From positions 21,670,910-21,734,909 of the forward strand of contig OY720350.1 in NCBI GenBank assembly GCA_963082975.1: 64,000 bases of DNA, given 5' to 3'. Position numbers and translations under genes: made by a program. This document shows positions 2,670 through 15,200 of the stretch, piece after piece. The notes beneath the pieces are model-generated. The model saw nothing but the letters and a program-made list of their open reading frames with translations, ran no database searches and was not told where the DNA came from. How positions within the stretch are numbered: the first letter of the stretch is position 1; every line of letters starts with the position of its first letter. This DNA comes from Labia minor. Lineage: Eukaryota; Arthropoda; Insecta; Dermaptera; Spongiphoridae.

Positions 2670-3240
2670 GATGATCTTAATAAATTTTTATTTGAAATTT
2701 TAATTTTATTTTTTATTTTGATTTATTTATATGTATATAAATTGATTAAATCAATAATATTAAATATTAAAACATAATTAAAGCTTTATAGAAATTATCA
2801 ATCAAATTGTTAACGCAGAGTAAAGTAATCAGTAAAATAAACTCACATTTTATGAGATTTGAATATATTCCATTAAAGCTCCCATAGTCTTCTTTTGGCA
2901 AGTTTATAATACAAATAAATTATTTTCAAAATTGGAAATGGAGAGGTTTTGAGAAAAATGAAAAATAGATCGAGTCCGACATAAAACGGGTGTTAGATCA
3001 GATGGACAGTAATAAATCATTGGATGGCGTGGTGATGGATTGAAAAAAAGATGTATTACCTATTTCTTTTTGTAACACAGTGGAAGAGGTAATAATGGTA
3101 AAAGATGCCTTTTCTCAAGAAAAATCCTAGTTAAAGTATAAGTGTCAAAATAAGAAATATTATTCTCTTTAATTTAAAAGAGTTTTAAATTATAACTAGA
3201 AAAGAGAGAAGTGAATAAGTAAATGTTTCTATAATTATCC
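2670..3240. other. AT-rich stretch, nothing recognised
   Basis: Simple AT-rich DNA between two repeat fragments. I see no coding, RNA or repeat signal in it. Confidence 0.45.
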
Positions 3241-6720: not shown

Positions 6721-6801
6721 AATAATAATTCGTTATATTTATATTATATTTATATTATATTTATATTATTGTAGTTCAATGTTAATAAATTACTCCATAA
6801 A

Positions 6802-8660
6802 ATGGATCGTTGGCTACAAACTGGTTCAACACAGAAACGGAAAGAATCAGATGATGAGGCATCAACAGCAAACTCTACCAAGAAACGCAAAACTAGAAAA
6901 TATTCGGATGATTATTTATCATTTGGATTTACTTATATTTGCAACAATGATGTGGAAAGACCAGTCTGCGTTCTATGTCAGGAAAGTTTATCCAATGAAA
7001 GTATGAAACCTGCTAATCTCAGACGTCATTTACAAACAAAGCACAGCGAGCATGTTAGTAAGTCTATCGAATTTTTTAAAATGAAAAAAGAAGAACTTAA
7101 TTCAAGTCAGAAATTGATGGTAAAGACGGGATCTGGTGGTATGAGTAAGAAAGCAGTAATGGCATCATATGAAGTAGCTCTACTTATTGCTAAAGCAGGA
7201 AAGCCGCATAATATAGCAGAGCAATTAATTCTTCCTGCTACAAAAGTAATTACAAATATAATGTTAGGAACTAAAGCAGCAAACGATATAAATTTGATTT
7301 CATTATCAAATGATACGGTTAAGAATAGGATTGAAGACATGTCATGTAATATAAAAGAAGAATTAATATCGAGAGTGCGCAAAAGTCACTATTACTCATT
7401 ACAATTGGATGAAAGTACTGATGTCACTAATAATGCCAATTTGTTAGCTTTCATTAGATATGAGTTTGAAAATCAAATACAAGAAGATGTATTGTTTTGT
7501 GATTCACTACCTTCACGAACGACAGCTAATGACATATTTAACAGTTTGAATAATTTTATAACCGAAAATGAAATAGAGTGGCCAAAATGTGTTGGAATTT
7601 GCACTGATGGTGCTCGTGCAATGTCAGGTACAAGAACTGGATTGATTGCTCTTATTAAAAATGTTGCGCCTCAGGTTGTTTGGAATCATTGCTGCATTCA
7701 CAGAGAATCATTAGCAGCCAAAAATATGTCACCAGATTTGAAAAGAACATTAGACGAAGTAGTTAAAATTGTCAATTTCATTAAGGCTCGTCCACTTAAT
7801 TCCAGAGTTTTTAAAATTTTGTGTGAGGAAATGGGTAGTCAACATACACATTTATTATTACATACAGATGTACGTTGGTTGTCCCGCGGGAAAGTACTCA
7901 TTCGCCTTTTTGAGCTTCGAGATGAAATACGATTGTTTTTAATAGATGCGCATTTTGAACTGACCGAATGTTTCAATGATTTTATCTGGTTAGCTAGGGG
8001 GCTTACTTGACTGATATTTTTACAAAATTGAACGAACTTAATTTGAGCCTGCAAGGTACTGTTGTAAATATATTTAAAGTTGAAGATAAAATAGAAGCAA
8101 TGATTAAAAAAATCGACTTGTGGTCGAAACGCATCCAGAACGGTGTATATGAGTCTTTTCCAACTCTCAATGATTTCATAGAAAGCTCCAGTGAAAAATT
8201 GCTTAATCAAACGCGTCAATTATTTGTTGAACATTTAATTACTTTGAAAAGCAACTTCAGGAAGTATTTTTCTACTCCTGATCCTTGCAATAACTGGATC
8301 AGAGATCCATTTAATATGGAAATTACAAATGCTAAACATTTATCTGCACCTGAACAAGATATTCTCGTGGAATTATCATGTGATACAACTTATAAACTAA
8401 AATTTAACAAAACTGAATTGAGCAACTTTTGGTTACTTCTCAGGTCAGATTATCCTGCGCTTGCAAATAAAGCACTTCAACACTTGATTCCATTCTGCAC
8501 AACATATTTATGCGAACAAGCTTTTTCGGTACTATTTTATATTAAGTCTAAATATAGAAACAAATTAAATGTAGAGCCGGATCTTAGATTAAAAGTTTCC
8601 AATATTAAGCCAGATATTGAGATTCTTGTTTCAAGAAAACAACTGCATACATCTCATTAA
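6802..8660 (+). pseudogene. hAT transposase, ZBED5/SCAND3-like, one frameshift
   Basis: Would cut and paste the surrounding hAT element. ATG at 6802 opens a BED-type zinc finger (C56-x2-C59, H76-x4-H81). The RNase-H-like core follows, with acidic residues in LQLDESTD (D203) and ICTDGARAMSG (D269), then the CCIH motif at 297-300 and HTDVRWLSRGK near 354-364. At a run of five G (about 7997) the frame is lost by one base and stops at 8008-8010. The second frame (8007-8660) carries the C-terminal hAT dimerisation region, including PALANKALQHLIPFC and EQAFSVLFYIKSKYRNKLN. Both parts total about 619 residues, close to full length for ZBED5-like proteins. Apart from the single frameshift it is well preserved, so it is either recently dead or the indel is an assembly error. 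Terminal repeats and target duplication argue against a domesticated host gene. Confidence 0.88.
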
Positions 8661-11130: not shown

Positions 11131-11845
11131 TGTTATTTTTGTTATTTTTTTATTTTTTTTTTTTTTTTTTTAAGAATTTGTTATAAAAGAAAAACAACGT
11201 TAAAAGTATTATTGAACATTGTTTTATTTAATTTAAATATTTATAACATTTTATAAAATTTTTTTTTTAATCTTTTAGATCTCGATAGATGTATAAGAAT
11301 TTAAATATACGATTTTACATTTAATATTTATTTTATTAATTTAGTTTTTTATTTTAAGTTGTGTATAGTATTCTATAAATTTAATATTAAGAATTTTTTC
11401 ATAATCTAAAATTTATTAAAATTCATTTAAAAAAAAAATTAAATTTTCTGAATTTGTAGTATTATATAAGAAAAAAAAATATCGACAACATAAAATCTAT
11501 ATAAAATTTCCCATTAGTATTTCTCCACATGTTTCAAAATTTCATTGTCATTTTCAGTTACTGGATGACAACTTTGATTTCCTGGACAGAATCAAGTAAA
11601 ATCCGTCTTAGTCCTTTTTTCACACATAGCATTCTTATCATTCTCACAAATTCTGTGTCTTTTTTCTAGCGCTTTAATGATTTTTATTTTGAAATTGAAT
11701 TAGAAAATAACCTTCACGAAAATGTAAAGAGAAATGTCACCTTTTAACCACATATTCGTAAGAAACAATCTTATTAGTGTTGTCAACAACATTTAACGGA
11801 AAAAAATCAAGGATAATTTATATGTCTCATTATAATAATAAAAAA
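11131..11845. other. AT-rich stretch without recognised gene
   Basis: Poly-T tract at about 11148-11172, then AT-rich DNA. A somewhat less AT-rich patch at 11515-11780 contains no open frame or known motif. Confidence 0.4.
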
Positions 11846-12463
11846 GTTGACCTGTGGCCAGGTCCGAACCGACCGACGTTTTGAAGTAAATTAATTTTCA
11901 GCTACAGAAACAATTTCAAATAATTTTAATATATCTATTAATGTAATAAAAAACAGATATGAATATAACATAAATATTTTTAATTTTATTTTATTTATAA
12001 TATATATGCAAGACCAGGCTGTGACGTCATGAATGGCTGGATGACGTCATATAATTTTAAATCAAGAAAAAACTAATAAATATGATTTTCCAGAGGATAA
12101 AACCAATACAAAGTGTACGATTCGTGGTGATATATAAAAAAATCTCCTTTGGTGTGAAAATAACCCTTCCCTTCCTATCGTCGATCGCTAATACTACCAC
12201 TTCCGGTTTCCGGATTTGCAACAAAAGTTGATCAATTCATCCCACTGATGTATTAAGTAAATATACCAAATTTCATGAAAATCGGTTCAGCCGTTCAGGC
12301 TGTACACATCTATACGGACGGACGGACGGACGGACAGACATCATGCTAAAAATACTTTTTTCTGTTTAGAAAATGCATGATTCGTGGAGATATGTAAAAA
12401 TCTCCACATGTGAAATTTGGTGTGAAAACAATACCTCCCTTACTATCGTCGGTCGGTAAAAAG
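11846..12463 (+). mobile_element. Family B (Helentron-like non-autonomous element) copy B1
   Basis: Full length. It starts with the hairpin GACCTGTGGCCAGGTC and the inverted repeat ACCGACCGACG. An AT-rich block and two TGACGTCA sites (12022-12029, 12042-12049) follow. The core is CCACTTCCGG ... AAAAGTTGATC ... ACCAAATTTCATGA, then a GACG microsatellite (about 12315-12335). It ends CGTCGGTCGGTAAAAA. An internal block (12118-12190) resembles the terminal block (12377-12460). Non-coding. Confidence 0.8.
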
Positions 12464-12596
12464 CTAGAAATTTATTATATAAACCAAATAAGAATTATTT
12501 AGTTTTTGTGATTACACTTATCTGTCTTTAAAAAATGTATAACAATTTTAAACTAGACCAAATTTTCAGAGTCGTCAAATTCGAAGAACTTTATTT

Positions 12597-12750
12597 CAGG
12601 GGTTTTATATCAAGCCTTTTCAAGTGCCCTCGAAGCCATTTTCAATTAAATTATTACTTAAAAAAGGGTAAAATGTTTTTGCGATCAGGCTCTTAAACAT
12701 TTGCGATTTTTCAATATGGCTCTAAGTATCACCAAGTGTGTCCACCCCTG
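12597..12750. mobile_element. Degenerate hAT-like MITE
   Basis: Left end CAGGGGTTTTATATC and right end GTGTCCACCCCTG are outward hAT-type termini enclosing the family motif TTTGCGATTTTTCAATATGGC. No convincing target duplication remains. Confidence 0.4.
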
Positions 12751-12967
12751 TTATATTATTTCAGAAATGTGCCCGAATATTGAAAAAGGTGCCCCTGATT
12801 TATATAACAATAAAAAAACCTCTAATAAAAAAAATTTCAGAAATAAATGCATTTTAACTACACACACACGTTGACGATTAAAAAAAACCTCTACTCAGAC
12901 TTAGGGGACGCGAGAAATTTTTTCAAAAAATTGGGGGTCGCAAATGAAGCTAAGTTGCGCATCACTG
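12751..12967. mobile_element. hAT-like 3' end fragment
   Basis: Ends with GGGGGTCGCAAATGAAGC and CGCATCACTG, typical of the right terminus of GGGGTCGC-type hAT MITEs. The left end is not identifiable. Confidence 0.3.
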
Positions 12968-13427
12968 AACCCGTTGCAAACAGTGTTTGCAATTTATGTT
13001 TAAACTGAATTTGTAACTAACTTCATAATGTTACAGACATCACATACATACAAACATACGACGAAATTATGTACTTTGATATTATTTATTTTATTTATTC
13101 ATTATCCTCAATTCATATTATATAAAAACAGTATAAATTTTATATTAATATTTAATGTAATTTTTAATCTAGTATAGGAAATCAATCATTCCATTGTCAA
13201 ATTCTATCAACGATAATAATTACATATATTTTTATTTTATTGATTATTAAATAGACACTAAAAATATATTTATTTAAGCATAATAAATCAATCATTGGAA
13301 TATTATAAATAAAATTTATTCAACCTATAGGAAAATATTATTAGCTCAATGAATATTAAATATATTATATATATTATATATATAATATATATATATGTTG
13401 GTTTAGGTTTCCGTGAATGTTATTGTT
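12968..13427. other. AT-rich stretch ending in AT microsatellite
   Basis: Unremarkable AT-rich DNA, with an (AT)n/TATAATATA run at about 13358-13396 next to the following foldback element. Confidence 0.4.
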
Positions 13428-13852
13428 ATTATTACTATCAGATTTATCAGGGATATAATCACGTATTTTTGTGAGATTGTTTTCTCGACGTTTCGGCACC
13501 CATTTTGGCGCCATTTCAAGAGATTATTTAGGTGAGAATATATGGGATTCTGTGTCATAGTCTCTGTGACCAAGGGTTAAGGGCTATTGTCCGGTACGGA
13601 CGTGTGCCAGAATCAGGATTGCCCAGGATTCTTCGGAGCGCCACAGCAACGCAGTGAGTACAAAACCGTCCAACCTATCAACCCAAAATCCCGATATTAA
13701 CCCTTGGTCACACAGACTAAGACCCAGAATCCCAAAAATATTCCCACCTAAATAATCTCTTGAAAATGGCGCCAAAATGGGTGCCGAAACGTCGAGAAAA
13801 CAAACTCACAAAAATACGTGATTATATCCCTGATAAATCTGATAGTAATAAT
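13428..13852. mobile_element. Foldback MITE with ~155-bp inverted arms
   Basis: Left arm 13428-13580 and right arm 13697-13852 are reverse complements with scattered mismatches. Each contains CGACGTTTCGGCACCCATTT or its complement and the motif GATTTATCAGGGATATAATC. The 116-bp centre is non-coding. G+C is well above the surroundings, suggesting an origin outside the local AT-rich background. Confidence 0.85.
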
Positions 13853-13888
13853 ATATACATATATAATATATATAGATTTTTATGAATA

Positions 13889-14005
13889 TTTATTACTATC
13901 TCGCCAGAGATAGTATTGCGATCACGAAAATTTTCGATGTTGAGATTTTGATGTTTTTATACGTTTTGAAGGTTCCTGAATCATTTTCACTAAGGTTGAG
14001 AAAAA

Positions 14006-14047
<42 letters not shown>

Positions 14048-14502
14048 GGCAAGATTACGCAAAAACGGTTTGAGCTAGAATGATGAAATTTGGTACATGG
14101 ACATTATTCAAAATTCATAGTTTTCTATCAACTTTTGAGAAATGTAGCTCAACCGGAAGAGGGTCATTACCTACAACGTTTTGATTTTTTTTCCTCTAAA
14201 GTGACCGTAAAAATAAAGATATATGTTTGATAATTTTTCACATGATTAATAATTGTATAAAACTGATATATATAGAATTTCAGCTTGATTGATTCGATGA
14301 AATTACCAGAATTAATTTTTTAACACTGCAAATCTCACGCGCCAACATGTGACATGGTGCCATCAACAAAAAGCCAAACATGCGCTGGTTTAATATTTAT
14401 TATTTATAATTTATAATTAATTAAATTTAATTTAAATATAATATATTATGTTATTTAATCCAATTCAAATTGCGAGATAGTCGAGTGGAGACACTCCAGC
14501 TA
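13889..14502 (-). mobile_element. Family A copy A4, best-preserved full-length copy
   Basis: Read on plus it starts ACTATCTCGCCAGAGATAGT and carries a (GT)n microsatellite at about 14010-14038. It continues through the core and the CACGCGCCAACATGTGACATGG block to GCGAGATAGT, then the hairpin GAGTGGAGACACTC and CAGCT. Length is about 610 bp. Short open frames here are accidental. Confidence 0.85.
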
Positions 14503-15200
14503 ATTTTAAAATAAAATTATATTTTTATCTATGTATATACATAATTTAGGTAGATAATATGTATATACAATTTAAAACTAAAAAGTAAATAAATTATAAA
14601 AGGATCAAAAATAACTAAACTGATTTTCCAATAAATTATATTAATTTACATTAAATAAATTAATTATAATTAGCGTGTTAGTTAACAGCTATATATATAT
14701 AAAAATACCTGAAAAATCTCATATATTATAAATTGAATTTTGATTAATAAAATGAAAGATAATATTATATATAGGTATATAATAATATTTTAAATTGTTT
14801 TGTATATTTAATAATCATTTATTTCAATGGGAGTAATTCCAAATCAATTTGTAAAATAAGCAAAGCTTGCTAATAATTTTCAACGTTAATTAATTAAATT
14901 TAAAGATAATGAGTGGATTTGTAATTGAATCATTTATTAAGAGTGTTTAATATTTTATCCTCTTTTGATGATCAAAATATAATTATATATATATTAGTAT
15001 ATTCTACCCAGCTATTAAAAAAAAAAAAAAAATTATTTTTCTAATTTTTTTTTTCATAGTGAATAAACATTTTATCATTAATTTAATTTTGGCTTTTACT
15101 TACATTTGAACTCAATATCTCTAAAACAAACTTCACATTCAAATTTGATATTCTTTAAAGATTAATTAATCGCTTAATTTTTCAAATTAAAACTATTAAG
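14503..15200. other. AT-rich stretch, nothing recognised
   Basis: AT-rich DNA with a poly-A tract (about 15019-15034). No gene or repeat ends seen. Confidence 0.4.

Follow-up and report, generated by a model that had tools for sequence, protein, structure and literature searches.

The 64,000-nt stretch analysed here (the window, C9:21670910-21734909 of a 604-Mb, 71-contig eukaryotic assembly) contains two short repetitive elements of different families, A and B, which are HINEs, i.e., non-autonomous Helentrons of the DINE-1 kind. The family B element occupies positions 11840..12462 on the minus strand, so that its 3' hairpin lies leftmost; by BLAST it is 97.0 % identical to its family consensus over 633 bp. 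The family A element occupies positions 13890..14507 on the plus strand and matches its own consensus at 98.6 % over 623 bp. The initial annotation had treated them as one range, 11846..14502, which does cover both elements but includes a stretch, 12463-13889, that belongs to neither. Between termini of their own, A and B share a 110-nt core in which four short blocks of identity are held at fixed spacing, and this core has the look of a DNA site under constraint, not of a chance resemblance.

Read from its 5' end on the minus strand, the B copy comprises a 5' subterminal inverted repeat (subTIR, 12447..12457), a (GACG)n microsatellite (12317..12335) which is of the GTCC/GTCT type on the element strand, and the core with its four blocks (12197..12306). 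The motifs CCACTTCCGG, AAAAGTTGAT and ACCAAATTTCAT lie at 12197, 12223 and 12265 of this copy, which departs by one base in the second block. Two TGACGTCA palindromes, at 12042 and 12022 (12022..12049), are present in the window and in the consensus alike. The element ends with an 11-bp 3' subTIR (11868..11878) and, 3 nt further on, a terminal hairpin with a 6-bp stem (11849..11864) that is kept in the consensus. A second copy of the B 5' block (consensus 4-96), 83 % similar, is located after the core at consensus positions 272-366; in the window the two correspond to 12459-12367 and 12191-12107. This duplication, which is also found in the coding element helB described below, looks as if two element starts had fused.

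The A copy presents the same order of motifs on the plus strand. Its 10-bp 5' subTIR (13895..13904) is adjoined by an 8-bp inverted repeat of the DINE-1 type (13907..13914), of which inspection by eye revealed no counterpart beside the 5' subTIR of B. The (TG)n microsatellite (14010..14040) precedes the core (14053..14162, with blocks at 14064-14068, 14081-14095, 14127-14137 and 14151-14159), and the 3' subTIR (14472..14481) is separated by 1 nt from a terminal hairpin with a 5-bp stem (14483..14496), identical to that of the Helentron helA. Where B carries its palindromes, the A consensus has TGACGTGG and the window copy TGACATGG; this region aligns no better than shuffled sequence.

Each consensus was built from the 30 best-scoring genome copies, fetched with their flanks from 40 that had been scored among 2,137 (B) and 2,912 (A) first-look candidates; the identities of the listed copies (95-98 % for B, 88-98 % for A) therefore describe best matches and not a representative sample. 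With the hairpin placed 3', the B consensus starts with TTTTTACCGACCGACG and ends with CGTCGGTCGGT-TCG-GACCTGGCCACAGGTC-AACTTATT, while that of A starts with TTTTTACTATCTCGCCAGAGATAGT and ends with GCGAGATAGT-C-GAGTGGAGACACTC-CAGCTAATTTT. In both cases column agreement drops to background at the 3' end, and the hairpins and inverted repeats proposed as element ends in the initial annotation are indeed the ends of both families across the genome. Exact matches to the subTIR plus hairpin number 13,380 for B (30-mer) and 6,408 for A (32-mer), 19,788 in all, compared to none for either reversed pattern. Such an abundance of identical 30- and 32-mers suggests recent amplification, and if all copies were full length B and A would make up about 8.5 and 4.0 Mb of the genome, respectively. 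In the window itself, merging of 25 BLAST rows yields 13 A and 4 B pieces; the initial annotation had counted 12 and 4, respectively.

Insertion occurs into runs of T. At least five T directly precede the 5' subTIR in 51 of the 57 copies that could be oriented by script (3 of the 60 were skipped), and two T in the other six. Four copies (A_L045, A_L036, B_L017 and B_L020) are nested in other A or B elements, and joining their flanks restores an uninterrupted host sequence at the T-run. Moreover, 6 of the 57 copies abut the end of another A or B element, which indicates that the T-rich element ends are themselves insertion targets. Insertion exactly at the T-rich end of an A, B or Helitron-like element has created head-to-tail neighbours at seven loci (L004, L007, L022, L037, L041, L047 and L080). 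A preference for TT or T-rich sites is a habit of DINE-1 and of Helentrons (as described in PMC2374699 and PMC4067079). Together with the subTIRs, the single 3' hairpin and the microsatellite, this places both families among the HINEs, as the initial annotation had proposed, even though the subTIR of A, at 10 bp, falls slightly under the 11–15 bp range given in PMC4067079 (that of B measures 11 bp). The hallmarks of canonical Helitrons (5' TC, 3' CTRR, insertion between A and T, a hairpin about 11 bp from the 3' end) are not those of A and B, whose ends consist of a T-run followed by ACTATC or ACCGAC at the 5' side and of CTAATT or CTTATT at the 3' side, with subTIRs.

The A and B consensus sequences align without gaps over 110 nt, 65 of which are identical, compared to a mean of 31 and a maximum of 49 in 20,000 block-shuffled controls. 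The identities concentrate in four blocks, AACGG, TGATGAAATTTGGTA, ATCAACTTTTG and AACCGGAAG(N)GG, which match throughout, while among the remaining core positions 23 of 68 agree (34 %, against a shuffle mean of 28 %). The block centres are about 22, 44 and 24 nt apart, a spacing that is possibly helically phased. In gapped tests with 500 shuffles per segment, the core stands out clearly (z 8.9, no shuffle reaching the score), the stretch before the microsatellite gives only a hint of homology (z 2.4, 7 of 500), and in the part that follows the core A and B have no detectable homology (z 0.3, with 196 of 500 shuffles reaching the score). A simpler local test of the core barely exceeds its controls (31 versus a maximum of 30 in 1,000 shuffles), so that it is the fixed spacing which makes the case strong. 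An AT-rich block and a CRE/E-box-like site, both counted as part of the common core in the initial annotation, are arranged alike in A and B but show no demonstrable homology; what survives in the consensus is thus narrower than originally claimed.

This pattern bears directly on the notion that the core is nothing but passive shared ancestry, an old module that has yet to diverge. A and B do have their order and layout in common, and their whole-element alignment is colinear, as would be expected of such a relic. However, uniform decay does not yield blocks that match throughout next to spacers near background and a downstream part that is no longer alignable, and we regard this explanation as improbable, with the reservation that the blocks were picked out with the alignment in view.

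A search of the genome with the Pfam domain Helitron_like_N returned 92 matches, one of which leads to a coding partner for family A. This element, helA, lies at C1:47862605-47874782 (12,178 bp) and contains a stop-free frame of 2,181 codons (C1:47.86 Mb) with a Rep domain (PF14214, Helitron_like_N, E 1.3e-23), a PIF1 helicase (PF05970, E 1.9e-31) and DUF6570. The last 45 bp of A recur at 100 % about 1.25 kb downstream of the frame. A second copy of helA at C1:44.69 Mb carries the same 45 bp, and the 99 % similarity between the two loci ends within one base of the end of A. At the 5' side of helA (L086), A 1-507 is found at 94.8 %, followed by a repeat of A 298-534 at 92.8 % and then by a leader, 128 bp of which are found again, at 96 %, upstream of the copy at C1:44.70. 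The limits given above for helA follow from this A-type 5' block, the recurring leader and the shared 3' 45 bp. In addition, 51 of the last 60 bases of A and helA are identical, which is above the 80 % subfamily rule of PMC4067079, although the subTIR measures 10 and not 11 bp. Judged from the sequence, A is the 5' module of helA (about 534 bp) joined to its 3' tip (45 bp), some 44 bp between the two being unaccounted for.

Within the C-terminal 472 aa of the helA frame (L064, C1:47861000-47870700), a stretch similar to Peptidase_C48 (Ulp1/C48; E 0.003, below cut-off) comes after an endonuclease-like one, at the place where helB has an OTU protease. Weak matches to SENP8 in the PDB (E 0.015 and 0.032) agree with this observation. 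The term Ulp1 is absent from the two papers richest in the word Helentron among the 12 of 672 matches listed in a search of open-licence PubMed Central (PMC).

Other loci are less complete. One helA-like copy (L070) abuts a long terminal repeat (LTR) retrotransposon, and in another (L069) the 1.6 kb that were read contain no 3' end of A. Several candidates were rejected as partners. A class of Helitrons with a 1,652-aa protein (L062) has an A copy nearby but none in the stretches fetched at three sister loci, a weak test given that only one of the three shares any sequence (82 bp) with the downstream side of L062. The Rep-helicase part of helC, a further Rep/helicase element of this genome, has about 27 % identity to that of helA, and the A copy found at the 5' border of helC is a mere neighbour. 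Neither an A nor a B end was found at helD (C2:66.56 Mb, 52 %) in L072 and L073, or at a Helentron-like locus of contig C63 in L084.

The probable partner of family B is helB. Upstream of a Rep/helicase gene at C1:55.79 Mb (L085), B 1-525 is present at 91 % from the very first base of B, and this block is followed by a leader of about 1.3 kb and then by the open frame. Two loci start at the first base of B with different flanks. The Rep/helicase protein is 40–51 % identical to that of helA over the two stretches compared, as given by the search rows, and an OTU protease stretch, a known Helentron passenger (according to PMC4067079), lies downstream (E 1.5e-9). Thus B seems to consist of 525 bp of the helB 5' module plus about 110 bp of a 3' end, the source of which was not seen in helB. 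The search for a Rep/helicase Helentron with either set of ends, as suggested by the initial annotation, has therefore been successful for A at both termini and for B at its 5' terminus. A pattern designed to find B 3' ends with foreign upstream sequence picked out 68 places, many of them small variants, and the two that fall within 30 kb of a Rep match are in the wrong order or on the wrong strand.

The initial annotation had also supposed that the two lineages swapped their termini. An exchange of ends around the common core, by recombination or template switching, would at first sight account for a B-type 5' end in the helA locus, where it is accompanied by a leader 90–97 % like that of helB, and for helC-type loci with a leader piece about 94 % like that of helB. 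The apparent chimera, a Helentron with a B 5' end and an A 3' end, was discarded, being a 5' fragment of helB nested in the helA leader. The B-type block and helB leader extend over 1,865 bp (90 %) and are flanked by two sequences (399-709 and 2827-3105) that resemble each other at 89 %, as would be expected from a tandem duplication of the helA leader; the true 5' end of helA is A-type. No A/B hybrids were seen among the 60 copies with ends displayed, no search designed for hybrids having been made, and these copies had been selected for their fit to an entire A or B element, so that hybrids would be under-represented. Exchange of termini is hard to credit, and the claim of swapping finds no support in the data. 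Both termini of A and the 5' terminus of B come from distinct Helentron lineages, and the pattern would be explained if these lineages had diverged as wholes while a constrained core was kept.

Pieces of the helB leader (93–94 % for the best piece) are found at three loci, 1975-2516 of L081 (C9:34.50 Mb), C6:19227262-19228490 and C4:68219206-68220285. At two of them a helC-type Rep/helicase gene follows, of a lineage about 27 % identical to helA. These pieces may reflect real module sharing between lineages.

In helA and helB alike the core is located in the 5' module, upstream of the open frame and with CRE-like palindromes nearby. This is where a promoter or regulatory region of the Rep/helicase gene would be expected, which recent short deletion derivatives would merely have inherited, and this is the main rival to a role in transposition. 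Yet the short elements, which need no promoter, have retained about 534 (A) and 525 bp (B) of the module, and the core of DINE-1 is kept across 12 Drosophila species (in the account of PMC2374699). Both points are compatible with an inherited promoter as well, and we rate it as unlikely, but as an explanation to be taken seriously.

The explanation we favour, with a probability of roughly 60 %, is that A and B are HINEs of the DINE-1 kind, each derived by internal deletion from its own Helentron and presumably copied in trans, and that the core is most likely a cis-acting transposition site. It builds on the ends, the copy numbers, the insertion into T-runs, the pairing of A with helA at both ends, the match of B to the 5' end of helB and the core alignment, and it presumes trans-mobilisation, the 3' end of helB and the function of the core. 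An action in cis is suggested by the retention of blocks at fixed spacing while the spacers are near background, by the position of the core in the module adjoining the initiating 5' end, and by the fact that separate deletions left both families with 5' modules of similar length.

In the accepted rolling-circle model for this family, the Rep/helicase (or Rep/helicase/endonuclease) of helA or helB would nick the 5' end and the helicase would displace a strand until the 3' subTIR plus hairpin cause it to stop, insertion then taking place in T-runs; short elements with the same ends would be copied in trans. The core of the 5' module would most likely be a loading site for Rep/helicase or a host factor beside the origin end, and would have been preserved as the subTIRs, hairpins, microsatellites and spacers changed. 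A more specific version, which we advance tentatively and at somewhat less than even odds, sees in the core a modular cis-acting site of Helentron transposition, whose four invariant blocks at fixed spacing would be bound by Rep/helicase or a host factor independently of the termini. If so, a short element would need matching ends for cutting plus the 5' module for efficient copying. As the initial annotation surmised, the core would then act beyond end recognition. For DINE-1, a contribution of the core to transposition has already been proposed in print (PMC2374699).

A number of observations weigh against this explanation. The alignment used to test the four blocks is also the one from which they were drawn. 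The Exo_endo_phos_2-like stretch of helA (E 3e-4) scores 21.1 bits, below the Pfam cut-off of 27.4. In a third copy of helA (L074) the A-type 5' block breaks off at A 266, and other repeats lie between it and the frame, so that this copy was set aside as proof of the helA 5' end. An LTR retrotransposon in L083 interrupts helB before its 3' end, and the pairing with B is seen at the 5' end. None of the 68 altered B 3' ends has one of the 92 Rep matches within 30 kb in the correct order and on the correct strand, for a filter that requires an exact 3' end and would pass only an estimated half of unrelated upstream sequences. Finally, the parts of helC that were read revealed no core, and the mite HINEs described in PMC4067079 also lack one, which means that the core is not needed by every rolling-circle element.

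Outside A and B, a third core-bearing family was sought in 353 kb of pooled sequence from the same genome, selected around A, B and Rep matches and with A and B masked; the best match has an E value of 0.13, and none falls below 0.1. Searches of other collections gave four matches in viral contigs, which have no microsatellite within 100 bases on either side and were taken as chance, and further collections gave none. A search of papers for the letters of the core returned nothing relevant. The A core matches weakly a provisional DINE-1 sequence (1 of 500 shuffles reaches the score), with one block alike. The corresponding match of B was discarded as evidence, being driven by the common GTCC microsatellite. 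Descent of both cores from a common DINE-1-type core seems likely.

The window contains other repetitive features. A fold-back element with 90-nt arms that are 99 % complementary, and with further inner arms, lies between the two HINEs (13427-13853). The remnant of a hAT-like transposase spans 6775-8660 in two frames, of which the second matches Dimer_Tnp_hAT (E 1.8e-4) and the first has no Pfam match. Long, repetitive open frames rich in Lys, Glu and Ala occupy both strands of 484-1504, the part 484-855 being without Pfam match.

Elements of this general kind have been described before. Coates et al. (2010, 2011) reportedly identified lepidopteran miniature inverted-repeat transposable elements that carry (GTCY)n microsatellites as hitchhikers, along with a related family of Helitron-like elements; judged by their titles, these are short elements of insects in which an array of the GTCY type adjoins a conserved segment. 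No earlier description of the A and B elements or of a four-block core map was found among the papers listed by searches of open-licence PMC.

The Cg_HINE elements of the Pacific oyster resemble A and B in the 5' subTIR, inverted repeat and microsatellite at the left, the subTIR and palindrome at the right, the insertion into oligo-T and the presence of several families per genome. They differ in carrying satellite-like arrays, and the authors were unable to link them to known autonomous Helentrons; the term "core" is absent from the main text of that paper (PMC7492417). The HINEs of mites and mosquitoes have, as A does at both ends and B at its 5' end, termini in common with a Rep/helicase/endonuclease Helentron, an OTU domain in some cases and terminal T-runs of variable length, whereas those of mites are devoid of the inverted repeat and have subTIRs that are themselves palindromic (as reported in PMC4067079).

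The closest counterparts among known elements are DINE-1, INE-1 and mini-me of Drosophila, which have the subTIRs, a core in the 5' block beside a microsatellite and a 3' hairpin right after the 3' subTIR (PMC2374699, PMC4067079). They also insert into TT or T-rich sites, reach very high copy numbers and display several types of subTIR around one core; they are like A in the inverted repeat beside the 5' subTIR and like B in the GTCY microsatellite. Differences are that the A and B consensus sequences are without central tandem repeats, that A has (TG)n in place of GTCY, that no inverted repeat was seen in B, that the subTIRs measure 10–11 instead of 13 bp, and that the core is only partly alike, in one block of the provisional DINE-1 sequence. 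From 12 Drosophila species whose elements differ in their subTIRs, Yang and Barbash reported a core of about 90 bp close to a GTCY microsatellite, and they proposed that it takes part in transposition (PMC2374699). A and B are ordinary members of this HINE/DINE-1 group, to which they add a pair of coding partners and a map of the core in four blocks across two lineages. The question of what the DINE-1 core does dates from 2008. In the present genome two lineages coexist, each with its own ends and coding partner, and their comparison reduces the core to four short blocks and supplies short elements together with an open-frame Helentron.

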